Source: Brevibacterium sp. JSBI002 (GTDB lineage: Bacteria; Actinomycetota; Actinomycetes; Actinomycetales; Brevibacteriaceae). Taken from it: 64,000 bases of DNA. Under the pieces are notes generated by a model, which worked only from the letters and a program-made list of their open reading frames with translations, made no database searches and was not told where the DNA came from. Shown one piece after another: positions 14,353 to 30,140 of this stretch. How positions within the stretch are numbered: position 1 is the first letter of the stretch; every line of letters starts with the position of its first letter. The stretch spans positions 3,658,001-3,722,000 of the forward strand of contig NZ_CP110341.1 of assembly GCF_026013965.1 (NCBI RefSeq), written 5' to 3'. The position numbers and the translations under genes were made by a program.

Positions 14353-16257
14353 TCAGCGCACGACTTCGCGGTGTGTGGTGTCGAGTCGGCGCGTCCAGCC
14401 CCGGCCGTCGAGGTGTTCGAGCAGAGGGATGACGACGCGTCGGGTCGTCCCCAGCGCCTGCCTCGCCTGGCTTGTGGTGAAGGGCTGGTCGAGACCGGCG
14501 AGGATCCGCATCGCCTGCGCGGGGGTGCGCGGAGCCACGATGATTCCGTCGCCGAGGCGCAGGATCCGTCCCGCCTTCTCAGCGACCGCGAGCTCCCGCG
14601 CTCCGAGGGCGAGTTCGCGCAGGTCATCGGCTTCTGGTGCGGCGAACGGGTCGGCTGCGAGTCGCCGTTCGATCTCGGCGATACCGGCTTCGGCGGCACC
14701 GAGTCCCGCGGTATGCCCGGGCGGGCGGACCATTCCGTCGACGGCTTCGAGCTCGGCGCGGGAGATGATCTGGTTGAGCAGTGCGCGAATCGCGCCGCCG
14801 GAGCCTTCGGGCAGAGGCAGAGCCGGCTGGCTTTTCGCCGTCGCCGAGGTGTCACTTTTCGTTTCGCTGCCGCGTCTGCGACCTGAGTCGGGAGTTCGCT
14901 GAAGTGCCTCGGCGACGGCTTTGACGGGCACTCCTGCGGCCATCGGCGTGGCGGCGAGTTCACGGTTGACCAGGGATTTCGTCGCCTCTACCCAGGAGGT
15001 CAGCGCCGGCGAGTGGACGAGCCACTCACCCACAACCTCGATGTCGGCGGGCAGGCCCTCGTCATCGGGCACCTGCAGACCGAACCGGGTAAGGACGGTG
15101 CGTTCGACGGCTCCGCGGCGGGCCACCTCGGCGAGGATATCGCCTTTCACAGGACGGTCGGCAAGCTCTTTCGCTCGCCTGGCGCCGTCGCCTCGTCGGG
15201 ACAGTTCGGGTGGGTCGACGTCGAGCACGAGGAGGCCTGCGAAGACGTTGCGGCTGCCCGGGGCGCGAAGCACGATCCGGTCGCTGACCTGCAGGGGAAG
15301 TGGTCGATCGAGGGTGAGCCGGGCGTGGTCGGCGTCGAAGGATCGCAGCCGGGCGGGCACGGCGGCGGTGCCGATATGGGCCATGAGTTCGTGGATGCCG
15401 GAGTCGAGTGCCTCGCCCATGGTGCGGCGCACATCGATCGTGTCGACGATCGGCCAGGCCCCACTCGTGAGCAGAGCGTCGCCGCGGTGGAGGTCGTCGG
15501 CGGGGACGTCGCGCAGGTTGACGGCCACGCGGGCCTGCGGGACCACCTCGGTAGTGGTGGAATTACGGGACTGCAGACCCCGCACACCCACGATCCGGTC
15601 GATGGTCTCTCCGCGCAGCTCGACTGTATCGCCCGTGGTCAGAGTGCCTGCCGTGAGGGTCCCGGTGACGACGGTGCCGGCACCCTTGATGGTGAAGGCC
15701 CGGTCGACCCACAGTCGAACCCTCCCCGAGGTGGTCGGAGGCTCGGCCGTGGCCGTGACCTCGTCGAGGACGCTGATGAGTTCGGGCAGGCCCTGCCCGG
15801 TCGTGGCTGACACCGTGACGATCGGCGCTGCTTCGAGTGGTGTTCCACGCAGCTGCGCTCTGACCTGAGCTTTTGTGGTCTCGACAGAGTCAGGGGCGAG
15901 GTCGGCCCGGGTGATGACGACGAGGCCGTGGGTGATGCCGAGCGCATTGATCGCGTCGCGGTGGTCAGTCGATTGGGCTTGCCAGCCCTTGTCTGCGGCG
16001 ATGATGAAGCAGGCGATGGGGGCGGGGCCGAGCCCGGCGAGCATGTTCGCAAGGAACTTTTCGTGCCCCGGAACGTCGACGAAGGCGAGTTCGCGTCCCG
16101 ATGGCAGGGTCGTCCAGGCGAAACCGAGGTCGATGGTCAGCCCGCGCTTCTTCTCTTCGGCCCACCGATCGGGTTCCATTCCGGTCAGGGCACCCACCAG
16201 CGTCGACTTCCCGTGGTCGACGTGCCCGGCGGTGGCGATGACGAAAGTGTCAGGCAT
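14353..16257 (-). CDS. selB: Selenocysteine-specific translation elongation factor SelB
   Basis: 634 residues from ATG at 16257, which overlaps the end of selA by 8 bases. N-terminal GTPase domain: GHVDHGKSTLVGALTG (G1, residues 11-26), KRGLTIDLGFAW (G2), DVPGHEKFLANM (G3). These are followed by beta-barrel domains and a long C-terminal part (about residues 400-634) with winged-helix repeats that in this family bind the SECIS hairpin of the mRNA. SelB brings Sec-tRNA to the ribosome at UGA codons. Length fits SelB (E. coli 614). Its client in this window is the UGA-containing fdhA. Confidence 0.95.
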   Translation of the reverse strand: MPDTFVIATAGHVDHGKSTLVGALTGMEPDRWAEEKKRGLTIDLGFAWTTLPSGRELAFVDVPGHEKFLANMLAGLGPAPIACFIIAADKGWQAQSTDHRDAINALGITHGLVVITRADLAPDSVETTKAQVRAQLRGTPLEAAPIVTVSATTGQGLPELISVLDEVTATAEPPTTSGRVRLWVDRAFTIKGAGTVVTGTLTAGTLTTGDTVELRGETIDRIVGVRGLQSRNSTTTEVVPQARVAVNLRDVPADDLHRGDALLTSGAWPIVDTIDVRRTMGEALDSGIHELMAHIGTAAVPARLRSFDADHARLTLDRPLPLQVSDRIVLRAPGSRNVFAGLLVLDVDPPELSRRGDGARRAKELADRPVKGDILAEVARRGAVERTVLTRFGLQVPDDEGLPADIEVVGEWLVHSPALTSWVEATKSLVNRELAATPMAAGVPVKAVAEALQRTPDSGRRRGSETKSDTSATAKSQPALPLPEGSGGAIRALLNQIISRAELEAVDGMVRPPGHTAGLGAAEAGIAEIERRLAADPFAAPEADDLRELALGARELAVAEKAGRILRLGDGIIVAPRTPAQAMRILAGLDQPFTTSQARQALGTTRRVVIPLLEHLDGRGWTRRLDTTHREVVR

Positions 16258-17569
16258 TGTCAGCACGGACTCGCTTGATAGCGGCAGCGATGCGGTTGTC
16301 TTCGCTTTCGGGTACGCAGCGCAGGTCGACCAAGCATCGTCCCTGGTGGACTCGGGCGACGATCGCAGGATCGCCGCGGCGCAGCGGCTCGGCGAAGGCT
16401 TCAGGCAGTTCGACTGCCCAGCCGGACAGGGGCACTCCGGGGGCTCCCCCGCCGCCGACTCGTCCGTCGTGGTCGACGATCGTGGCACCGACCGCCTCGG
16501 CGATAGTTTCGGTGCGTTTCCGCAGGTGAACTGTGTCGATGTGGAGGGCGTCGTGGATCGGGTTCGCGGTGTGAGTGATCGTGGCTTCGAGGGCGGCGAG
16601 GGTGAGTTTGTCGGTGCGCAGCGCTCTGGCCAGAGGGTGTTTGGCCAGTGTCTGCACTGCTTCGGTGCGGCCGAGGATGAGGCCGGCCTGCGGGCCGCCG
16701 AGGAGTTTGTCGCCGGAGACGATGACGAGGTCGGCGCCGGCGCGCAGGGCGGTGTCGATATCGGGTTCGTCGGGCAACGCCGGGTCGGGAGTGAAGAGCC
16801 CGGAGCCGAGGTCGACGATGAGCGGCAGGTTGTGCTCGTCGGCGAGTCCGCGCAGGTCGGCCACCTCGACGGAGGAGGTGAATCCTTCGACGCGGAAGTT
16901 GCTCGTGTGCACCTTGAGCAGGCAGGACGTGTCGTCGCTGATGGCCTCGGCGTAGTCGGCCACGTGGGTGCGGTTCGTCGTGCCGACCTCGCGCAGCCTG
17001 GCGCCGGTCGTCGTCATGAGGTCGGTGAGGCGGAACCCGGCACCGATTTCGATGAGTTCGCCGCGGCTGATGATGATCTCGCCGGAACCTGTGCCGCTGC
17101 CGCGCATCGCAGTGACGGCCAACAGCAGGGCGGCCGCACCGTTGTTGACCACGAGAGCATCCTCGGCAGCCGGGCTCGCCTGCAGCAGGGCGGCCTTCGC
17201 TCCGGTGCCCCGCTTGCTGCGTTTGCCGGTGCCGAGGTCCATTTCGACGTCGACATATCCGGCCGCCTCGGTGATCGCCTGGGTTGCCGCAGGTGAGAGC
17301 GGTGCCCGGCCGAGGTTCGTGTGAACGAGGATGCCGGTGGCATTGAGCACTGGGGTCAGGGAGGAAGCCGAACGGGAACCAAGCTTGGAGGTGATGGCGG
17401 GGGCCACCTCGGCGACGGGGATCTCACGGGCCCGGGCGGCGTTCTGCACCTCGGAGATGATGGCCTTGATGGTCGCCTGGTTGAGGTGCTCACCTGCGGC
17501 GATGACCTCGGGAAGGGCGAGGAGGTGATCCGTGCGCGGAATGGATCGACGCGGGTCGGGATCGACCAT
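16250..17569 (-). CDS. selA: L-seryl-tRNA(Sec) selenium transferase SelA
   Basis: 439 residues from ATG at 17569 (GGAGG 8 bases upstream; the in-frame start 27 bases earlier is less well placed). PLP enzyme converting Ser-tRNA(Sec) to Sec-tRNA(Sec) with selenophosphate. Family landmarks: VLNATGILVHTNLGRAPLS, VVNNGAAALLL, GSGLF and the PLP lysine in SGDKLLGGPQAG (about residue 284). It lies 63 bases after selC and overlaps selB, so selC-selA-selB is probably one transcription unit. Confidence 0.95.
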   Translation of the reverse strand: MVDPDPRRSIPRTDHLLALPEVIAAGEHLNQATIKAIISEVQNAARAREIPVAEVAPAITSKLGSRSASSLTPVLNATGILVHTNLGRAPLSPAATQAITEAAGYVDVEMDLGTGKRSKRGTGAKAALLQASPAAEDALVVNNGAAALLLAVTAMRGSGTGSGEIIISRGELIEIGAGFRLTDLMTTTGARLREVGTTNRTHVADYAEAISDDTSCLLKVHTSNFRVEGFTSSVEVADLRGLADEHNLPLIVDLGSGLFTPDPALPDEPDIDTALRAGADLVIVSGDKLLGGPQAGLILGRTEAVQTLAKHPLARALRTDKLTLAALEATITHTANPIHDALHIDTVHLRKRTETIAEAVGATIVDHDGRVGGGGAPGVPLSGWAVELPEAFAEPLRRGDPAIVARVHQGRCLVDLRCVPESEDNRIAAAIKRVRADNA

Positions 17570-17632
17570 GGGGCGGCCTCCTCGGTGCAGGGTCACGGCG
17601 GCGCCGCTTGGTCGGCGGGACCGCGAAACGGT

Positions 17633-17727
17633 TGGCGGAGGCGGACGGGAATCGAACCCGCCAGACCGAGATACTCGGTCTCACTGGTTTTGAAGACCAG
17701 GGCGCCCACCAGGACACGGACGCCTCC
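17633..17727 (-). tRNA. selC: tRNA-Sec (anticodon UCA)
   Basis: A 95-base tRNA including an encoded CCA (17633-17635). Acceptor arms GGAGGCG and CGCCTCC pair. The anticodon stem-loop is CTGGT-CTTCAAA-ACCAG with UCA at 17691-17693. A very long variable arm (AGACCGAG/CTCGGTCT around TAT) and the T-arm GGTTCGATTCC are clear. The 92-base body (without CCA), extra arm and anticodon reading UGA identify the selenocysteine tRNA. Acceptor plus T stem appear to total 13 pairs, as expected. Confidence 0.96.
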
Positions 17728-17926: not shown

Positions 17927-20900
17927 ATGCCCTCTTCGCTTCATCCTGCCTGGTCACATCACCATTCCAACTCCGCGGGACCACGGCACTCGGACGCATT
18001 CGTCCCAGCCATTCTCACCACTCTCGCAGTTCTCGCCGCCCTCATCGCACCCGTGGGTGCGCTTCCCGGTCTTCCGGGTCCCGCCTCCACACCGGCCCAT
18101 GCTGCAGCACCAAGCGAAGACGACCTCGGCAGAGACGGGTCGGCACTGCGCGACGTCGAAACCAAACGCGTGGCTCCGGGACTCGACCTGACGAACTTCT
18201 CCCGTCTCGAGGACGGCGGGTGGAACAACGGCAATGTGCTCACCGCGGACCTCACCACGGACTCCCTGTCGATGGACGTCCGCGACACGGGAAAGGTCGC
18301 CGGCGCCGGTACCACCAGCGAGATCATGGCGGGCGGACCCGAGGGGAAGAAGGCCGTGGCCGCCGTCAACGGCACGTTCTTCGACATCAACCAGTCGTGG
18401 GCACCGATCTACACCTCGGTGTCTCGGGAGGGAATGCGCATCGGCTCGAAGGAGGCCAAACCGGCGCTCACGCTCGAGGGCAAGAAGGCAGCCGTGTCGA
18501 TGCTCTCCGCGGCGGGAACGCTGACCCATGACGGGCAGGAGACGGAACTCGGCGGATTGAACAACCCGGAGCTGAGTCCCGACACCATCGGTGTGTACAA
18601 CGAGGCGTGGGGAGACCATACGCTCGACCGTCCGGTCGGCGGCCCCGATGACATAGCCGCCGAGGTCGCCCGCGTCACTGTCGTCGACGGAGAAGTCACC
18701 GAAGCCTCGGGCATGGTGGACGAAGCGCGCGACCCGGAAATCCCGGCAGACGGACAGGTCCTGCTCGGCCGCGATGCCGGGGCGAAGACGCTGTCGGAAC
18801 TCGAAGTCGGCGACGACGTCGATGTCGAGATCGGACCGAGCGAGGATGTCGACATGGGGATCGCGGGCAGCCACCAGATCCTGGCCGACGGCTCGGTTCC
18901 CGACCTCCCCGCCGGCGACCTCGAAGACACCGAACACCCGCGCACCGCGGTGGGCATCAGCAAGGACGGTTCGGAGCTGTTCGTCACCACCATCGACGGA
19001 CGCAGCGAGTCCTCGGGAGGCATGAGTCTCGAGGACATGGGCGAGTTCTTCTCTGACATCGGCGCCTACAACGCGGTCAACCTCGACGGCGGCGGGTCGA
19101 CGACGATGCTCGCCCGCACAGCCGGCGCAGATGCTCCGGCACTGCAGAACGACCCGTCCGACGGTAAGCAGCGCACCGTCGCCAATGCCCTCGTCTTCTA
19201 TTCCGACGCTCCCGCAGAACAACTGGCCGATGCACAGATCGAGCCCGAACTCGACGGACAGACCACCGTGCTCAAGGGGCTGAGCCGATCAATGAAGGGC
19301 ACCGGGCTCGGTGAGAATCTCGAACCGATCGCCTCCTCCGGAACGTTCTCCGCCGACGGCGGAGTGAAGCTCGCCGACTCCGATGAGTCGAACGCCCATG
19401 TGACCGGTGAGACCACCGGCAAGGGTCGCGTGAGCTATGCCGTCGACGGGCACACCGCGAGACAGGACCTCGATGTGCTCGGCGAACCGGTCGGACTCTG
19501 GCCGAGCGCGCGGAGCATCAACCTCGAGGACGCCCAGGACTCGCAGACGGTGTCCCTGACCGGCTTCGACTCCGAGGGCAGGCGTTCTCTCATCGAAACC
19601 GGCGACATCGACGTCGACGCCGACGAAGGGCTGAGGGTCGACACCGACAGCCTCGGCGAACTCGTCGTCTCCGCCGATTCGTCGACGGCTGGGAAAGGCA
19701 AGGGCTCCCACGACGACGAATCGACGTCCGGGAACGTGAAGCTCACCGTCGGAGACGTGACAACGACGATCCCGGTGACCGTCGGCACCGAAACGACCGA
19801 GGTCCTCGACTTCTCCGACACCTCGGCGTTCACCGACGGCCACGATCGGGCCACCGGCTCATTCACCGCAGGTGAGCCCAGCCCTGATGGCAAGCCGAGC
19901 ATCGATCTCACGTATGACTTCTCCACCTCCTCGGCGACGCGCGGCTACTACCTCATTCCGAAGGAGCCGGTGAAGCTGGAAGGCAACACGGTGGCGTTCG
20001 AGATGATGGTCCGCGGCGACGGCACCGGGGCCTGGCCGAGGCTGCAGGTGAGCACTCCCGACGGCACGGTGACGAACATCGACGGCGACCACATCACCTT
20101 CGACGGGTGGCAGAAGGTCCGCTTCACCGTCCCCGAGGGGCTCTCCCAACCGCTCACCCTCGAACGGATCCGGATGATGGAGACCCGGTCTGCCGAGAAG
20201 TACACGGGGGACATTTCGATCTCCGACCTCCAAGCGATCTCCACCCCTGAAACCGACGATCCGGCCACCTCAGCGCGGCATGATCCGGCGCTGCTGACGA
20301 CAGGGACCGTCGCTGACCGTCCGCAGAACATCGCCGTGATGAGCGACGCCCAGTTCGTCGCCACCGACCCGGACTTCGAAGCGGTCAAGGGTGCCAGGCG
20401 GACGCTCAAGGAGATCCGTGCCGAAAAGCCGGACCTGCTCGTCATCAACGGCGACCTCGTCGACGAGGCCTCTCCGGAGGATTTCGAGCTGGCGAAGACG
20501 ATCCTCGACGAGGAGTGGGATGAGTCGATCCCCTACATCTACGTGCCCGGCAACCACGAGATCATGGGTGGGGAGATCGGAAACTTCGAGCACGCTTTCG
20601 GCTCCCCGACCGGCGAGCGCACCGTGGGGCGGACGAAGATCGTGACCCTGAATTCCTCGGACGGGACCCTCAACGGCAGCGATGATTCGCAGTTGAACAT
20701 GCTCGAAGACGCCCTCGACGAGGTGGCCGAAAGTGACGAGCTGACCGGCATCACCGTGTTCTTCCACCATCCCCCGCAGGATCCGCTGCCGTCGAAGACA
20801 AGCCAGCTCGGGGACCGACGGGAGGCCGAGGAACTCGAGAAGAAGCTCGGAGAGTTCCGCAAGGACAGCGGGAAATCCGCGGCCGTGGTCAACGGCCACG

Positions 20901-21877
20901 TAGGAGCATTCCACGGGTCCGCGGTGGAGGGTGTGAGCTACCTGATCAACGGCAATTCCGGGAAGGATCCGGCCGGCACCGCGGCGACCGGCGGATTCAC
21001 CGGGTGGACGATGCTCGGCGTCGATCCCGGCGTCGGCGACGTCGGTGACGATCCGAGCACGGCCGATCGGGTGTGCTGGCTGGCCGCGGAGACGAAGCCG
21101 CGCGTCGATTCGATCTCACTCGAGGCACCCGGTTCCCTGGCCCCGGGACAATCCGCGGACGTCGCGGCATCCTTCACACAGGGTGAGCGCACCGTTCCCG
21201 TCGGGTGGCCGGCGACCGCCCAATGGGGCGGCGACGGTGTCGTGGTCGATTCCGGCGCCGAGGCGGCTATGCAGAAGGCGACGGGCGCACAGGTCAGTGC
21301 CCGGTCGGCCGGGTCCGGTGCCCCCGAGGCGGCCTCCGACGTCGTCCGCGTCAACCCGGCGACGGGGCAGATCACCGCGGAGAACCCGGGAACCGCGGTC
21401 CTCGAGGTCACCGTCAACGGCAAGACCGCGAAGACCACCATCGAGGTCGCGGGGGAAGAACCGCCTCCGGGTCCCGGCGATGACGACGGATCGGCCGACA
21501 GCGGCGGATCCGCCGACAGTGCGGGAGCTGAGGACGGCTCATCGGAGGGGTCGGACGATGACGGCGCCTCGACCAAGGCCTCGGCCGGTGCCGATGAGGA
21601 TTCCTCGGCGGGAAGCGGTTCGGACGGCTCCGGTTCCGATGGCTCCGCTTCGGGAGTCTCGAACGATGGATCGTCGAGTGCCTCGGCGGGAAACGGTGCA
21701 AACGCGGACGGATCGCCCGACGGGGACAGTTCGCCCGACGGGGGTGGCGATCTGCCACGCACCGGCGGACCGGTTCTGCTCACCGCACTGCTCGGCGCGT
21801 TGCTGGTCATCGGCGGGATCATCGCCGTCCGCGCGGCCCGCGTCCGGCGGGCCGGCCGCCCGGCGGGGAGGCACTGA
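17927..21877 (+). CDS. LPXTG-anchored surface protein: phosphodiester glycosidase (NAGPA) + calcineurin-like phosphoesterase
   Basis: 1316 residues. Order of parts: signal/anchor helix about 25-48; NAGPA/DUF2233 phosphodiester glycosidase domain about 75-430 (VNGTFFDINQ near 146, NLDGGGSTTMLAR near 384); a beta-rich middle region; a metallophosphoesterase domain about 800-1040 with VMSDAQF, LLVINGDLVDE, VPGNHE, FFHHPP and VNGHVGAFHG; an Ig-like stretch about 1065-1180; a Ser/Gly/Asp-rich linker; then the sorting signal LPRTGG at 1276, a membrane helix and a basic tail. NAGPA domains remove sugars from phosphodiester links; the second domain could then act on phosphomonoester or diester products. 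The first metal motif is D-x-Q rather than the commoner D-x-H. It probably acts on wall polymers (teichoic acid-like) or extracellular sugars. It lies between selC and selD, with no evident link to selenium. Confidence 0.85.
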   Translation: MPSSLHPAWSHHHSNSAGPRHSDAFVPAILTTLAVLAALIAPVGALPGLPGPASTPAHAAAPSEDDLGRDGSALRDVETKRVAPGLDLTNFSRLEDGGWNNGNVLTADLTTDSLSMDVRDTGKVAGAGTTSEIMAGGPEGKKAVAAVNGTFFDINQSWAPIYTSVSREGMRIGSKEAKPALTLEGKKAAVSMLSAAGTLTHDGQETELGGLNNPELSPDTIGVYNEAWGDHTLDRPVGGPDDIAAEVARVTVVDGEVTEASGMVDEARDPEIPADGQVLLGRDAGAKTLSELEVGDDVDVEIGPSEDVDMGIAGSHQILADGSVPDLPAGDLEDTEHPRTAVGISKDGSELFVTTIDGRSESSGGMSLEDMGEFFSDIGAYNAVNLDGGGSTTMLARTAGADAPALQNDPSDGKQRTVANALVFYSDAPAEQLADAQIEPELDGQTTVLKGLSRSMKGTGLGENLEPIASSGTFSADGGVKLADSDESNAHVTGETTGKGRVSYAVDGHTARQDLDVLGEPVGLWPSARSINLEDAQDSQTVSLTGFDSEGRRSLIETGDIDVDADEGLRVDTDSLGELVVSADSSTAGKGKGSHDDESTSGNVKLTVGDVTTTIPVTVGTETTEVLDFSDTSAFTDGHDRATGSFTAGEPSPDGKPSIDLTYDFSTSSATRGYYLIPKEPVKLEGNTVAFEMMVRGDGTGAWPRLQVSTPDGTVTNIDGDHITFDGWQKVRFTVPEGLSQPLTLERIRMMETRSAEKYTGDISISDLQAISTPETDDPATSARHDPALLTTGTVADRPQNIAVMSDAQFVATDPDFEAVKGARRTLKEIRAEKPDLLVINGDLVDEASPEDFELAKTILDEEWDESIPYIYVPGNHEIMGGEIGNFEHAFGSPTGERTVGRTKIVTLNSSDGTLNGSDDSQLNMLEDALDEVAESDELTGITVFFHHPPQDPLPSKTSQLGDRREAEELEKKLGEFRKDSGKSAAVVNGHVGAFHGSAVEGVSYLINGNSGKDPAGTAATGGFTGWTMLGVDPGVGDVGDDPSTADRVCWLAAETKPRVDSISLEAPGSLAPGQSADVAASFTQGERTVPVGWPATAQWGGDGVVVDSGAEAAMQKATGAQVSARSAGSGAPEAASDVVRVNPATGQITAENPGTAVLEVTVNGKTAKTTIEVAGEEPPPGPGDDDGSADSGGSADSAGAEDGSSEGSDDDGASTKASAGADEDSSAGSGSDGSGSDGSASGVSNDGSSSASAGNGANADGSPDGDSSPDGGGDLPRTGGPVLLTALLGALLVIGGIIAVRAARVRRAGRPAGRH

Positions 21878-21988: not shown

Positions 21989-22975
21989 ATGACTGCGATT
22001 CAGGATCGTCTGACCTCGTTCGCCCACGGTGGAGGATGTGCGTGCAAGATCCCGCCGGGTGAACTCGAGGACGCGGTGCGCGGGCTAGTCGGCCAGTCCG
22101 GTCCAGACGTCCTTGTCGGCCTCGATGACGGTGATGATGCCTCGGCGGTGCGGGTCCGTGACGACCTTGCGGTGCTCTCGACGGCGGACTTCTTCACTCC
22201 CGTCGTCGACGATGCTTACGACTGGGGTCGGATCGCGGCGGCCAACGCGCTCTCCGACATCTACGCGATGGGCGGGACCCCGGTGACGGCGATCAACCTC
22301 GTCGGGTGGCCGCGGGAGAAGCTGCCGATGGAGCTGCTCACCGAGGTGCTTCGCGGCGGGCTCGACGTGGCGGCACAGGCGAACTGCCCCGTTGCCGGCG
22401 GACATTCGATCGACGATCCCGAACCGAAGTACGGCATGGCCGTCACCGGCGTGGCCCACCCGGATGAACTCATGCGCAATGATGCCGCCGAGGTGGGTCT
22501 TCCCCTGACATTGACCAAGCCGATCGGCGTGGGCATCCTCAACAATCGGCACAAGCAGACCGGCGAGGTCTCCGAGGAGGCCATCGCCACGATGACCGCG
22601 CTCAACGACGAAGCCTCACGCGCCGCTGTCGCGGCCGGAGTGCGAGCAGCCACCGACGTCACCGGTTTCGGTCTGCTCGGGCACCTGTTCAAGATGGCGC
22701 GGGCCTCCGGGGTCGGAGCGGTCATCGATGCGTCTGCGGTACCCCGCCTCGGCGGTGTCGATGAGTCGATCGCTGACGGGTACGTGTCCGGCGGAACCAG
22801 GCGAAACCTCGACTGGGTGCGGCCTCATCTGACTGCGGATGATTCCGTGACCGAGGACGATCTGCTCCTTCTGGCCGACGCGCAGACCTCCGGCGGGCTG
22901 CTCGTCGTCGGTGAACTGCCCGGTCACCCCGTCATCGGTGAGATCGTTGCTGGGTCTGGCGTGCACGTGCGGTAA
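21989..22975 (+). CDS. selD: Selenide, water dikinase (selenophosphate synthetase)
   Basis: 328 residues. Makes selenophosphate from selenide and ATP, the donor used by SelA. The N-terminal active-site loop is HGGGCACKIPPGEL: Cys takes the position that is Sec in some SelD proteins, and Lys follows as expected. VGLDDGDDASAVR, STADFFTPVVDDAYDWGRI and NALSDIYAMGG are ATP/metal-binding segments of the family. Opposite strand to selCAB, separated from them by the large LPXTG protein gene. Likely read from a leaderless mRNA. Confidence 0.95.
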   Translation: MTAIQDRLTSFAHGGGCACKIPPGELEDAVRGLVGQSGPDVLVGLDDGDDASAVRVRDDLAVLSTADFFTPVVDDAYDWGRIAAANALSDIYAMGGTPVTAINLVGWPREKLPMELLTEVLRGGLDVAAQANCPVAGGHSIDDPEPKYGMAVTGVAHPDELMRNDAAEVGLPLTLTKPIGVGILNNRHKQTGEVSEEAIATMTALNDEASRAAVAAGVRAATDVTGFGLLGHLFKMARASGVGAVIDASAVPRLGGVDESIADGYVSGGTRRNLDWVRPHLTADDSVTEDDLLLLADAQTSGGLLVVGELPGHPVIGEIVAGSGVHVR

Positions 22976-24065: not shown

Positions 24066-24147
24066 GGCGCTAGCGGTGTGGGATGCCAACGGAACTGTAT
24101 AAGTACCCACTGGCGGTGAGAAGTTGGCACTATCAGTGTTTAGCGCC
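24066..24147. repeat. 82-base imperfect inverted repeat at the end of the fdh operon
   Basis: Two nested 7-base arms pair: GGCGCTA (24066-24072) with TAGCGCC (24141-24147), and TGCCAAC (24084-24090) with GTTGGCA (24123-24129). The inner spacers are equal (11 bases each). The element includes the stop codon of fdhC, so it may end fdh transcription, or it may be a small mobile-element remnant. The centre is AT-rich. Confidence 0.55.
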
Positions 24148-25390
24148 CGGTGGTGATGGAGTCGTCGGTGATGCCGCGAGCCCGACGTTCCTCGAGGCGA
24201 GCGCGCTGCGGTTCGACCACGTGGCGCGGGTCCTTCGTCGATTCGATTCCGGCCTCCAACACGCCGAAACGCGTGTACGCCGAGGCGGCAGCGAGTGCCG
24301 CACCGGAGACGACGGACAGTCCGCGCAGAACAGCACGCGTCTTCCAACTCCGTTTGCCCAAGGTTCCGGAGCTGGCACCAGACGCCAGTTTCTTCCCGAA
24401 CACGCGCGCCCCCACCTCGACGGCGGCGGCACCGACGGCCCCGACGATGAGCAGCTTCTCGGCCCGATGCAACTTGTGTCCCGGCTCGCCGTCGTCCAAC
24501 GGATCGACCTCGGCCGGGTGCATGCGCTTCCTCATCGCCGACATCGCATAAGCCTCTCCGGCGGTGCCGGTGAGCGCGAGCAGTCGGGCCGGGCCGGTCT
24601 CGGCCACCGGTGCCAATGCCATCGCGGCACCTCCGGCGGCCATCGAAGCCGAGGACACGAACACATACGGCAGACCATTGCGACCGGCAGCGTTCCAGGT
24701 CGGAACGGCCGTCGCCCCGAGAAGCACAGCGGTATATGCGGCTAGCGGAGTGGCGAAGAAGGCGGATTCGACGGCCGCCGGCGTCTCCATCGCATGGAGC
24801 ACCTTGCGCAGCGGGCCCAGAGGCAGCAGCTTCTCACCGGTGATCCGGTCGAGTTCGATCGCGAAGGTCACTCCTGATCCGACACCGAAGCCGGAGAGGA
24901 TCCACGTGCCCAGGCTCATCGGCGACGAGACTTTGACCACGCGCATCATATTGAGGAATCGTTCGGGCCTGCCGAGGTCGGCCACGAGAGCGGCACCGCC
25001 GATGCCGGTGGCCGCTATCGCAGTCATCCGGGAGGCGATGCGCAGACCCGGCCGGTCGGTCAGCTGCGCGCCGAAGCCGAGCAGAGACGAACCGCCGGCC
25101 AGACCGCCGAGGAACAGGTACGTCCCGATCTCATCGCCCCACGGCGGGGCCTTGACGATCGCTCGACCGTAGTAGGACGTGAACTCGACGTCCTCGACCA
25201 TGGGCATCTCCCGGTTGCCGTCGGCACCGCGGTTCTTCCACCCGCCGCCGCGACCGTTGCCGCCGCGACCGCCCCGACGGCCACCGGAACCGTCAGATCC
25301 GCCGCGACCGCCACGGCCGCCTCGGCGACGTTTTCTGCGTCCGCCTTCCGGCTCGGGTGGGCGGTAGGAATCAAATTCTGAGGTGCTCAT
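24140..25390 (-). CDS. NrfD-family membrane subunit of formate dehydrogenase
   Basis: 416 residues from ATG at 25390, which overlaps the end of fdhB by 4 bases. Residues about 75-400 are a polytopic NrfD/PsrC-type quinone-interacting protein (GTYLFLGGLAGGSSLLG, DLGRPERFLNMMRVVK, SPMSLGTWIL). It would pass electrons from the iron-sulfur subunit to menaquinone. Unusual: residues 16-55 are an Arg/Gly-rich stretch (GRRKRRRGGRGGRGG and more) not normal for this family. Third gene of fdhA-fdhB-fdhC. Confidence 0.85.
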   Translation of the reverse strand: MSTSEFDSYRPPEPEGGRRKRRRGGRGGRGGSDGSGGRRGGRGGNGRGGGWKNRGADGNREMPMVEDVEFTSYYGRAIVKAPPWGDEIGTYLFLGGLAGGSSLLGFGAQLTDRPGLRIASRMTAIAATGIGGAALVADLGRPERFLNMMRVVKVSSPMSLGTWILSGFGVGSGVTFAIELDRITGEKLLPLGPLRKVLHAMETPAAVESAFFATPLAAYTAVLLGATAVPTWNAAGRNGLPYVFVSSASMAAGGAAMALAPVAETGPARLLALTGTAGEAYAMSAMRKRMHPAEVDPLDDGEPGHKLHRAEKLLIVGAVGAAAVEVGARVFGKKLASGASSGTLGKRSWKTRAVLRGLSVVSGAALAAASAYTRFGVLEAGIESTKDPRHVVEPQRARLEERRARGITDDSITTGR

Positions 25391-26514
25391 GAACGGCGGC
25401 TCCCAAGGAACGCGAGTCCGGCCGCGGCGACCATGCCCAGCGCCGCGATCCCGGCGTTGGCGTACATCTTCGGCAGGTCCTTGGTCGCGACCCGCGGGTC
25501 CGGCGGCAGGCCGTAGACCTCGGGTTCGTCGAGGAGGAGGAACACGGATCCGGTGCCGCCGACCCCGTCGTTCGGGTTCGCCCCGTAGAGGCGAGCCTCG
25601 GTCAGTCCCTTCGCGTGGAGTTCGGCCACTCGGTCGTGCGCCTGGTCGACCATGTCCTGACGGTCGCCGAACTTGATCGACTGAGTCGGGCAGGTCTGCG
25701 CGCAGGCTGGTTCCTGACCCTCGACGAGGCGGTCGTAGCAGAGGGTGCACTTATTCGCGGTACCCGCGTTCGGCACATCCATGTCCGCGGCCTTGCGATC
25801 ATCCCGGTCAGTAGGGGTGTTGATCGTGCCGTCGTCGCGGCGTTCGATGACGCCGAAGGGGCAGCCGGCCACACAGGTTCCACAGCCGTTGCAGACATCG
25901 TTCTGGACGACGACGGTGTCGAATTCGGTGCGGAAGAGCGCGCCGGTCGGGCACACGTCGAGGCAGCCGGCGTGCGTGCAGTGTTTGCACACGTCAGACG
26001 ACATCAGCCACCGGAAGTCCGCGGTGTCCGGGGGCGTCGTGTCGACGTTCGACAGGTCGGTCGGCTCCAGAGCACCCGGTGCCAGCAGATCGACGTTGAG
26101 CTCAGGCGTCGTCGGCAGACCGGCGGAGGTCCGGCCCTCGGCCGCCGCACCCAGGGCCCCGTCCAGCGGCTGAGCGGCGGCAGACTCATCGGTGCGCGGG
26201 CGGATCGTGGGCATGCCGAGATTGACGAGCTTGCGCCCGGATTCCCGAGCCTTCTCGATGCGCTCGGAATCCTGTTCGACGAAAGCGACGTGACGCCACG
26301 TGTTCGCACCGACGCTGCCCGTATTGTCATACGACGAACCGAGCAGTTCGAAGGTGCCGTCCTGCGGGTTGCGGTTCCACTCTTTGCACGCGACTTCGCA
26401 GGCCTTGCAGCCGATGCAGATCGAGGTGTCGGTGAAGAATCCCTTGCGGCTGTGCGCGGAATCGTGCCAGTGCCCGTCCGCGAGCGTGTCGTCATCGATC
26501 GTCGGTGTCGACAT
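25387..26514 (-). CDS. Formate dehydrogenase iron-sulfur (beta) subunit, four 4Fe-4S clusters
   Basis: 375 residues. Sixteen cysteines in four ferredoxin-type groups: CIGCKACEVACKEW near the N-terminus, CKHCTHAGCLDVCP, CNGCGTCVAGCPFG and CTLCYDRLVEGQEPACAQTCP. A C-terminal hydrophobic helix (IAALGMVAAAGLAFLG) anchors it to the membrane, as in FdnH/FdhB proteins. Start and stop overlap its neighbours (1 and 4 bases), so it is translated with fdhA and fdhC. Carries electrons from FdhA to the NrfD-like subunit. Confidence 0.92.
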   Translation of the reverse strand: MSTPTIDDDTLADGHWHDSAHSRKGFFTDTSICIGCKACEVACKEWNRNPQDGTFELLGSSYDNTGSVGANTWRHVAFVEQDSERIEKARESGRKLVNLGMPTIRPRTDESAAAQPLDGALGAAAEGRTSAGLPTTPELNVDLLAPGALEPTDLSNVDTTPPDTADFRWLMSSDVCKHCTHAGCLDVCPTGALFRTEFDTVVVQNDVCNGCGTCVAGCPFGVIERRDDGTINTPTDRDDRKAADMDVPNAGTANKCTLCYDRLVEGQEPACAQTCPTQSIKFGDRQDMVDQAHDRVAELHAKGLTEARLYGANPNDGVGGTGSVFLLLDEPEVYGLPPDPRVATKDLPKMYANAGIAALGMVAAAGLAFLGSRRS

Positions 26515-29500
26515 CAGTCGTCCTCCTCCTCGTTCTGCTGGCGCGCTTCGTCAGCCTGCCGATCCCGAGCCGCGCGGGCGCGAGCCTCCGCTTCGGCCAC
26601 CTCGGTTTCGGCGATCGCACTGCCGTCGGCGTGCCGGCCGTGGTCGGGGTCGCCGTCGCTGGGGTCCCCGTCGTCGGCGCGGTTCGACACGGCCGTCTCG
26701 GCGGGTTCGGTCGCCTCGGTGGGTCCGATGGTGATCCTACCGCTGCGATCATCGGCACTATCGACCGTCGCCGAGGCGTCGGTGTCGCCCTCGCCGGATC
26801 CCCTCGCCGAGGCGGTCGTGCCGTCCCGATCGGAGGCTCCATCCCGTCCCCCGTCCAGGGTCCTGCCCGGGGTGACGCCGACGGCCGAATCACCGCCTCG
26901 GTGAGCGTGCCCACCGGCGCTGCGGCCCTGTCCGGCGTGATGTGAGGCCTCGACATCCTCGGCGGGAACGGTGACCTGCTGGTTTCCGGATTCGGGACTG
27001 AGTCCGGCCTCTCGCTGGTACTTCTCGACGAAGTCGACGAGTTCGGGTCCGCGGGGACGGCGGCCGGGCATGATCGTTCCGGCCACGTATTTGCTGTTCT
27101 GGATGTAGACGTTGGGGTCCATCGTCACACCCAGCAGGTCGTTGGCGGAATCGCCCTCGACGACGGCTCCCTGACCGCCCACGCCCCAGTGGTAGGGCAG
27201 GCCGATCTGGTGGACGGTCTTCCCGCCGATGGTCAGCGGAGTCATCCGCTTCGTCACGAGGACGCGGGCCTCGATGGCCGCCCGCGGGGAGACCAGGGTG
27301 GCCCAACCGTAGGGCTCGAGTCCCACCTCGGCGGCGAGTTCCGGTGAGATCTCGCAGAACATCTCCGGTTGCAGCTCCGACAGGTACGGCAGCCACCGGG
27401 ACATGCCTCCGGCGGTGTGGTGCTCGGTGAGCCGGTAGGTCGTGAACACGTAGGGGAAGACCTCGGATCCGGGCACCCCGGCACCGGGTGCGGACAGGTT
27501 GTCTTCACGGCGCATGACCATCCGGGTCGGGCTGTTCTGCTGCGCATACAGCGGGTTGACGACCGTCGATTCCTGCGGCTCGTAGTGCGTGGGCATCGGA
27601 CCGTCGACCATGCCGCTGGGCGCGAACAGCCACCCCTTGCCGTCGGCCTGCATGATGAACGGATCGTCGCCGTCCAGGTGGGCGGGCCCGCCGTAGGCGA
27701 TATTCGATCGGGCGGCGGGTGCACGGTCGATCGGGAAGTCGGGCACGTCCTTGCCCGTCCACTTCCCGGCCTCGTCGTCCCACCACACGAACTTCTTCCG
27801 CTCCGACCAGGGAGTACCGTCCGGTGCGGCCGAGGCACGGTTGTACAGGATGCGACGGTTCGCCGGCCAGGCCCACGCCCATTCGGCGGCGGTCTCGTCC
27901 TGCTCATCCAGCGGTTTTCGGCGGGCGGCCATGTTCTGACCACCGGCATAGACGCCGGCGTAGATCCAGCAGCCTCCGGCGGTGGTCCCGTCGTCGGTCA
28001 TCTGGTTGAAGTTGTCCAAGGGCTCGCCGTCGCGGTCGCCGCCGATGAAGTAGCCGTTGATCTCCCTGACGACCGCCTCGGCGTCGACTTCGTTCTCCTC
28101 GTCGACCGGGTAGTCCCAGGTCATGTCGAGCAGCGGACGATCGCGGGGGTCGTCGGAGTCTTTCAGCTTCTCGCGCACGGCTTGGCCGAGCTCATAGAAG
28201 AAGTCGAGCTCGCTCTGTGCGTCTCCCGGCGGGTTGACAGCCTTGTGACGCCACTGCACCAGACGCTGAGTCTGCGTGAAGGTACCGGCCTTCTCCGTAT
28301 GGTTGGCCGCGGGCAGGAAGAACATCTCGGTGTCGATGTCCTCGGTCTTCAGCTCCCCGGTCTCGATCTCGGGGCCGTCCTTCCACCAGGTGGCCGATTC
28401 GATGAGGCTGAAGTCGCGGACGACCATCCACTTCAGGTGGCTCATGGCCATGCGCTGCATGCGCCCGTTGGCCGAGCCCACGGCCGGGTTCTGCCCAAGC
28501 AGGAAGTACCCGTCGACTCCGTCGTTGAGCATGCGCACCGCGGTCTGATAGGTGCCGTGGGCGCCGTTGATGCGCGGCAGATAGTCGAAGGCGAAGTCAT
28601 TGTCTGCCGTCGCCGCATCGCCCCACCAAGCCTTGAGCAGGTTGGTGGCGTAGGCGCGGCCGTTGGCCCAGTAGCCCTTATGGGTCTCCGGGGTGCCCAC
28701 GGCTGCAACGTAGTCGTCGAAGGTGTCGTGGATCCCGGCGCTGGGCATCGGCAGGTAGCCGGGCAGCAGGTTGAAGAGGGTGGGAATGTCCGTCGATCCC
28801 TGGATCGTCGCGTGCCCGCGCAGCGCCATGATTCCACCGCCCGGTCGACCCATGTTGCCCAGCAGGAGCTGGAGGATCGAGGCGGTGCGGATGAATTGCG
28901 CGCCGAGGCTGTGCTGGGTCCACCCAACCGCGTAGGCGAAGCACGTGGTCCGTTCCCGACCCGAGTTCTCGGTCACCGATTCGTAGAGGTAGTCGAAGTC
29001 TGCGGGTTTGATTCCGCAGTTCTCTTCGACCATCTCCGGCGTGTAGCGCGAGTAGTGGCGGCGGAGGATCTGGAAGACCGATTTCGGGTCCTTCAGGCTC
29101 GGATCCTTGAGTGGCGCACCGTGCTCATCGGTCTGGTACGACCACGTCGAGTTCTCGTACGAGTTCGTGTCCGGGTCGAACCCGGAGAACAGTCCGTCGA
29201 GATCCTCGGTGTCGACATAGTCGTCGCTGATGAGGTTCGCGGCGTTGGTGTAAGCGCGCACGTACTCGTCGAAGTAGCGGCCCTCGCTCAGCACACGGTT
29301 GATGAGCGCACCGAGCAGCACGATGTCGGAGCCGGCCCGGATGGGCACATGCTTATCGGCGATCGCGGTGGTGCGCGTGAAACGAGGATCGACGTGGATG
29401 ATGCGGGCACCACGGGCCTTGGCCTCGGTCACCCATTGGAAACCCACGGGGTGGCACTCGGCCATATTGGAACCCTGGATGATGATGCAGTCCGCATTCG

Positions 29501-30140
29501 CCATATCCTGGACGGGTTGTGTGGCGCCGCCGCGCCCGAACGAGGTTCCCAAACTGGGAACGGTGGCGGAGTGTCAAATACGCGCCTGGTTCTCGATCTG
29601 TATCGCCCCGGCCGCGGTGTAGAGCTTCTTGGCGAGGTAGTTCTCCTCGTTGTCGATGGTCGCCCCGCCGAGGCTGGCGATGCCCATCGTCCGCCGCAGC
29701 GGGTGGCCTTTGTCGTCGAAGTCCTCCCAGTGGTTGCGGCGGGCCTCGATGAACCGGTCGGCGATCATGTCGATCGCGGTCGGCAGGTCGATCTTCGTCC
29801 AGTCCTTGGCCTTCGGGGCTCTGTAGAGGACGTCGGTGACACGACCGGGAGCGTTGACGAGCTGTTCGCTGGCTGCGCCCTTCGGGCACAGACGGCCGCG
29901 AGAGATCGGTGAGTCCGGGTCGCCTTCGATCTGCACGACCTTGTCGTCCTTGACGAAGATCTTCTGCCCGCAGCCGACGGCGCAGTACGGGCACACGGAT
30001 TGGACGACCTTGTCGGCCGTGACCGTGCGTGGAGTGGTGTCCCGAGTCTGCTGGGACACGACGGATTCGCCGCGTCCCGTCTTATCCGACGTGCGCAGCT
30101 GCCGGAGTACCGGCCACTCGAGGAAGCTGAACCGAGCCAT
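26514..30140 (-). CDS. Formate dehydrogenase catalytic subunit, selenoprotein (UGA = Sec at codon 189)
   Basis: 1208 residues when the in-frame TGA at 29574-29576 is read as selenocysteine. Upstream part: 4Fe-4S motif CPYCAVGCG (Cys50, 53, 57) with RGRLCPKG. Then IENQARI-U-HSATVPSLGTSFGRGGAT, the exact context where formate dehydrogenases hold Sec or Cys as molybdenum ligand. Downstream: molybdopterin-binding domains (IIQGSNMAECHPVGF, HLKWMVVRDFSLIESATWW, GLPYHWGVGG). A SECIS-like hairpin follows the TGA. No twin-arginine signal is seen, so a cytoplasmic-side location is inferred. The last ~146 residues (26517-26954) are a charged, low-complexity tail not typical of the family. The start at 30140 lies 6 bases after TAAGGT (leaderless type). 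Oxidises formate to CO2. Confidence 0.93.
29545..29561 (-). promoter_or_regulatory. SECIS-like hairpin downstream of the Sec UGA in fdhA
   Basis: On the coding strand GTTCCC-AGTTT-GGGAAC forms a perfect 6-bp stem with a 5-base loop, beginning 12 bases after the TGA. Flanking bases can extend it. Position, size and U-rich loop match bacterial SECIS elements recognised by SelB within the reading frame. Confidence 0.8.

Follow-up and report, generated by a model that had tools for sequence, protein, structure and literature searches.

FdhA, the alpha subunit of formate dehydrogenase (FDH), represents the most widely distributed family of bacterial selenoproteins (PMC13188914), and Actinobacteria have been counted with the phyla rich in selenoprotein families (PMC1794560). 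In Actinomycetospora chiangmaiensis, FDH1 comprises a selenocysteine (Sec)-containing FdhA1 of 1078 amino acids (aa), the beta and gamma subunits FdhB1 (362 aa) and FdhC1 (366 aa), and the linked SelA and SelB encoded in the same cluster; a selenocysteine insertion sequence (SECIS) has been predicted there by bSECISearch, formate removal is selenite-dependent, and FdhA1 has been detected by proteomics (PMC7176365). Corynebacterium aurimucosum is described as carrying fdnG with an internal UGA, clustered with selA, selB, selC and selD (PMC2830990). The subject of this work is the fdhA gene in a 64,000-nucleotide stretch of the genome of Brevibacterium sp. JSBI002 (contig NZ_CP110341.1, positions 3,658,001 to 3,722,000), hereafter the window, whose own numbering is used throughout. 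Set side by side by description, this locus is like that of A. chiangmaiensis, with a longer FdhA (1208 aa) and with selC and selD also in the window, and shares the internal UGA and the clustering of the four sel genes with C. aurimucosum. A Sec-containing FDH encoded beside sel genes has already been published for Actinobacteria, and the case of the window is a known arrangement in this group.

The fdhA gene of the window is almost certainly a selenoprotein gene of a kind known in the phylum, as had been predicted from its letters alone; this status is supported by the Sec/Cys column at the in-frame UGA, by a well-supported predicted SECIS with compensatory changes and by the presence of selA, selB, selC and selD nearby in the window. 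We computed the gene anatomy, the homology, the covariation in the SECIS and the co-occurrence of the machinery; Sec incorporation in this strain, the membrane side of the enzyme and its electron acceptor are what we infer. The case illustrates how a conserved selenoenzyme can resemble a broken gene in raw sequence, and its outcome is a well-supported candidate SECIS for Brevibacterium and its phylum.

The fdhA frame, its in-frame UGA and the sel genes

The gene and its internal codon are located as follows:
26514..30140, minus strand: fdhA, formate dehydrogenase alpha subunit, 1208 residues with Sec at residue 189; FDH-N-type molybdopterin enzyme without a twin-arginine signal
29574..29576, minus strand: in-frame TGA assigned to Sec by frame translation, homologue loci and structure alignment

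Translation of the frame 30140-26514 meets a single internal stop, the TGA at 29576-29574 (residue 189), within the peptide IENQARI-U-HSATVPS; one frame thus holds both halves of FdhA, as originally claimed, on the minus strand, which that claim had left unstated. The read-through protein scores 1839 bits against NF041513 (NCBIfam formate_DH_Act; cut-off 1400), with both halves in one profile, and 929 bits against TIGR01553 (formate dehydrogenase-N alpha; cut-off 814). The structure of E. coli FdnG (PDB 1kqf) aligns with residues 43-1008, i.e. across the TGA, and in this alignment the N-terminal iron-sulphur site contributes four shared cysteines; the His that follows Sec is shared as well. 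The TGA column is X (Sec) in the chain sequences of 1kqf and 1h0h and Cys in the 9qm0 chain, and both the Sec column and the following His are also shared with E. coli FdhH (fdhF). No second FdhA-like gene was found in the genome of the strain (TIGR01591, E up to 1e-10), and FdhD is encoded elsewhere in it.

Conservation of the codon was assessed in 110 loci, 30 from a genome search that includes the strain itself and 80 from named genomes (Brevibacterium, Kocuria, Arthrobacter, Mycobacterium and others), with some genomes represented twice; the closest named loci are those of Brevibacterium. The Sec column is TGA in all 110, across several genera. Chance does not account for this, since both halves fit one profile, the protein aligns to 1kqf and the TGA occupies this column in every one of these loci. 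Among 30 further loci of the phylum, 29 have TGA and one (L119, genome G095) has TGC, retaining by eye two of the five core hairpin pairs and lacking U24; in G095 there is no tRNA-Sec match above 43 bits and no SelD match. Cys forms are also found at L184 (genome G087, with no tRNA-Sec match above 47 bits), L200 (genome G294), and in Nonomuraea (L224), Chelatococcus (L225) and Azospirillum (L227). SelD was matched in 194 of the 296 genomes of the phylum survey, and G095, G087 and G294, the three in which a Cys form was seen, are not among them. These data place the peptide at the family Sec/Cys site, as the original prediction had it.

Mechanical calling of open reading frames (ORFs) yields two pieces (30140-29574 and 29552-26514), as would be expected if the TGA were a nonsense mutation and fdhA a pseudogene or two separate genes. 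A further point for that explanation comes from a genome of the same genus (G013), where the fdhA alignment breaks into three segments past the Sec codon, with 98%, 97% and 94% identity (G013:C1:3858191-3861762); this gene is either decayed or affected by sequencing errors, and its TGA and hairpin (L036) are intact. We regard a nonsense mutation as exceedingly improbable: the TGA is the same in all 110 loci, the second half is conserved over its length, the non-Sec relatives seen carry Cys, sel genes lie in the window, and no plain stop with a decayed second half behind it was found at the codon among the 110 and 30 loci, the sole departure being the TGC. The expectation that automatic annotation would split the gene held in part. 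The available text of a Brevibacterium genome report lists fdhA, fdnG, rsxB, recQ, selD, selA and selB in this order, and its one mention of selenocysteine is within that gene table (PMC12467314); the consecutive fdhA and fdnG entries look as a split gene would. A public Arthrobacter plasmid record, on the other side, has one coding sequence spanning the TGA.

The genes of the Sec machinery in the window are:
17637..17727, minus strand: selC, tRNA-Sec, anticodon TCA
16250..17596, minus strand: selA, L-seryl-tRNA(Sec) selenium transferase
14353..16245 (start approximate; ORF open to 16488), minus strand: selB, Sec-specific elongation factor with a C-terminal winged-helix domain
21989..22975, plus strand: selD, selenide,water dikinase, without internal TGA; motif GGGCACK, Cys form

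All four genes that mark the setting of a bacterial selenoprotein gene are therefore inside the window. The enzyme was found in 41 of 59 genomes (E up to 1e-30, own genome included), and tRNA-Sec at 60 bits or more is present in 40 of these 41 and in 2 of the 18 FDH-negative genomes (G040 and G045). The 60-bit line is our own choice, placed in a gap between 62.7 and 52.0 bits; the family cut-off of 47 admits 47 of the 59. All three same-genus genomes that lack FDH (G009, G014 and G015) also lack tRNA-Sec.

Two observations concern the surroundings of these genes. Between selC and selD, a 1316-residue ORF (17927-21877, plus strand) has phosphodiester glycosidase (NAGPA) and metallophosphatase domains. 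Many of the listed distant actinobacterial genomes have a SelD with an in-frame TGA; the SelD of the window shows none, nor do the seven others listed from its order or class.

The SECIS hairpin

The hairpin behind the TGA is a well-supported predicted bacterial SECIS:
29544..29562, minus strand: SECIS hairpin, covering positions 15-33 when the U of UGA is numbered 1; loop AGTTT between the core stem strands 29561-29556 and 29550-29545

A 6-base-pair (bp) hairpin 12 bases downstream had been reported and read as a SECIS. It was located as GTTCCC-AGTTT-GGGAAC at 29561-29545, with positions 16-21 facing 27-32 and a stem of 6 bp (7 counting the loop A-U). A consensus model of the bacterial SECIS specifies a stem of 4-16 bp, a distance from UGA to loop of 16-37 nucleotides and a minimum free energy of at most -7.5 (PMC13188914); the element of the window has the loop A-G-U-U-U (with A22 and U26 able to pair), the 6-bp stem, a distance of 18 nucleotides and -8.3 kcal/mol when folded alone. 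E. coli fdhF, fdnG and fdoG have G16 U17, G23 U24 and U26 at matching places, with U17, G23 and U24 at an identical distance from the UGA. In E. coli, SelB contacts these bases.

Among 61 distinct sequences out of 139 loci, U17, G23, U24 and U26 are invariant, and base 31, opposite U17, is A in 38, G in 19 and U in 4, which fits a U17 that need not be paired. Pair 18-30 is UA in 36, CG in 22, UG in 2 and GC in 1, and pair 21-27 is CG in 57 and GC in 4. Positions 15, 18, 21, 27, 30 and 33 each fall on the third base of a codon, so that the peptide does not force the correlation within these pairs. The covariation score is 0.274 compared to 0.132 after shuffling, with none of 500 shuffles as high (33 sequences). 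On the tree, pair 15-33 shows about 5.6 concordant changes, 0 opposite and 3.4 without difference (median p 0.03); no concordant trend was seen on the tree for the control pairs 9-12, 30-36, 30-12 and 15-36 (among seven). The top segment of synonymous conservation among 559 (eight codons each) begins at the Sec codon. In 125 distinct genes, which remained of the 139 loci once these had been filtered by length and cleared of duplicates, the Val site of the hairpin is GTT in 100, compared to 4.7% of Val codons in these genes. In a more distant set of 53 distinct sites (from 60 regions), some sequences break pairs 18-30 and 19-29, and 8 have no G23; a wider search for distant sites holds a few chance pattern matches (e.g. 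L056, L082-L084), and the figures given here and below use the 53-site set.

Several results weigh against a selenoprotein gene with a SECIS of this kind. In the window, the outer pair 15-33 is a C-C mismatch. Two of five covariation measures are unexceptional (75 and 338 of 500 shuffles as high), and the independent co-changes on the tree, though concordant throughout, are few (2/2 for pair 18-30, 3/3 for pair 21-27), below significance. The stability of the hairpin is ordinary, as 232 of 1000 synonymous recodings are equally stable, and minimum free energy was discarded as evidence for a SECIS. A covariance model of this SECIS (R1) scores the Cys forms L224, L200 and L225 at 23.1, 22.5 and 13.7 bits, values that distant Sec forms also reach, and finds none of the three E. 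coli elements; since distant Sec and Cys forms overlap, R1 was also discarded as a discriminator between the two. Finally, one genome (G024, L017) has fdhA with TGA and hairpin, yet no tRNA-Sec above 49 bits; its fdhA lies at a contig edge.

The equally stable recodings, together with the R1 scores of L224 and L200, are what would be expected if the conserved peptide VP(S/G)LG produced the hairpin incidentally and Sec were specified otherwise. This is very improbable in our judgement, given the compensatory changes between third codon positions, which the peptide leaves unconstrained, the prevalence of GTT at the Val site and the agreement of U17, G23 and U24 with E. coli fdhF, fdnG and fdoG; the hairpin together with U17, G23U24 and U26 arises in only 61 of 5000 recodings. 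Another explanation holds that an ordinary tRNA (Trp or a suppressor) decodes the TGA in place of tRNA-Sec, and UGA followed by C is indeed a leaky stop context in E. coli. The complete Sec machinery in the window, the covariation of the SECIS pairs at third codon positions and the manner in which tRNA-Sec tracks fdhA across genomes leave this explanation next to no probability, and favor the reading of the UGA as Sec through a predicted SECIS.

When applied to the genome of the strain, R1 retrieves the fdhA site as the only one below E 1 (1.8e-11; next 1.42 and 7.48). This suggests that fdhA is the only selenoprotein gene in the genome, within the limits of a model that would miss unlike SECIS elements.

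The base directly 5' of the Sec codon

One more feature of the site precedes the UGA:
29577..29579, minus strand: Ile codon ATT just 5' of the Sec codon; third base A/T in 122 of 125 distinct actinobacterial fdhA

The codon before Sec is ATT in 89 of these genes, ATA in 33, ATC in 2 and ATG in 1, despite 89% G+C at third codon positions. Of 580 codon columns, this one has the highest share of A/T at the third position and the rarest codons; 90% of Ile codons are ATC, and the runner-up among the 26 Ile columns has 25% A/T. The second and third ranks in A/T share are the two halves of the SECIS pair 18-30. A tree of 79 rows contains at least 8 changes at this codon, up to 3 of them to ATC or ATG and the others within ATT/ATA. 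At the 53 distant sites, the base is A in 41, T in 9, G in 2 and C in 1, i.e. A/T in 50. The four actinobacterial Cys forms seen all have G or C there (L119 GTG, L184 ATC, L200 ATC, L224 GTC).

Two other groups differ in this respect. GTC is the codon in all 10 proteobacterial Sec-FDH loci inspected (three of E. coli, seven from plasmid records) and in both Cys forms, so that E. coli GTC stands against ATT in the window; the upstream codon of E. coli fdhF has reportedly been the subject of earlier work. In actinobacterial Sec-containing SelD, the base 5' of the Sec codon is C in 17, T in 8 and G in 4 (n=29); this set of 60 loci gave 29 Sec and 15 Cys sites that could be parsed, the pattern having missed 16, of which at least 6 are visibly Sec forms. 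The proteobacterial GTC speaks against a general decoding rule for a 5' A/U, and Sec-SelD does not support such a rule for Actinobacteria. A start codon in another frame (NTG from the 5' base) was also set aside because GTG is a common alternative start and is hardly seen at this site; there is one ATG codon among the 125 genes and there are two TTG among the 53 sites. No clear covarying partner base for the 5' A/U was found from 60 before to 119 after the UGA.

Judging from these codon frequencies, we put at roughly even odds that fdhA of Actinomycetota has a second cis element besides the SECIS, namely an A or U directly 5' of the UGA, which may set the balance between Sec insertion and termination in fdhA only. 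If functional, the 5' A/U would matter because the SECIS model of PMC13188914, in its available text, covers sequence from the UGA onward only. A literature search for work on this actinobacterial 5' base found nothing, including in the available parts of PMC4513850, PMC12013277 and PMC13188914.

Neighboring subunits and the proposed pathway

Two genes for further subunits follow fdhA:
25387..26514, minus strand: fdhB, 4Fe-4S beta subunit; its start overlaps the fdhA stop by one base
24140..25387 (start approximate), minus strand: NrfD-type membrane subunit, downstream of fdhB

E. coli FdnG is exported by the twin-arginine pathway and anchored by a cytochrome b. The FdhA of the window differs in that it has no twin-arginine signal, with no RR before its first cysteine (residue 50), and in that its anchor is of the NrfD type. 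The fdhA ATG is preceded by an in-frame TAA that ends 9 bases before it. An RR-x-hydrophobic motif occurs in 18 of 139 relatives within the stretch examined, partly upstream of the likely start. An FDH-N relative without a twin-arginine signal and with an NrfD-type anchor suggests a cytoplasm-facing enzyme.

By analogy with what is known of the families of SelA, SelB and SelD and of the role of Sec, the pathway in this strain would run as follows. SelD would supply selenophosphate, and SelA would convert Ser-tRNA-Sec to Sec-tRNA-Sec. SelB-GTP would carry the Sec-tRNA-Sec while its C-terminal winged-helix domain holds the SECIS 12 bases past the UGA, and the ribosome would insert Sec at residue 189 and complete the 1208-residue protein. 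Sec189 would serve as a molybdenum ligand, and FdhA, the 4Fe-4S FdhB and the NrfD-type subunit would oxidise formate; the lack of a twin-arginine signal makes the cytoplasmic side the probable one.

Both termini of FdhA have features of their own. At the N-terminus (30140-29990, minus strand), several of the relatives shown start with a similar FLxWPVxRQ stretch. The C-terminus (26514-26963, minus strand) is a charged low-complexity tail of about 150 residues, and in the Kocuria, Arthrobacter and Mycobacterium loci the match to FdhA stops between about residues 1050 and 1100.

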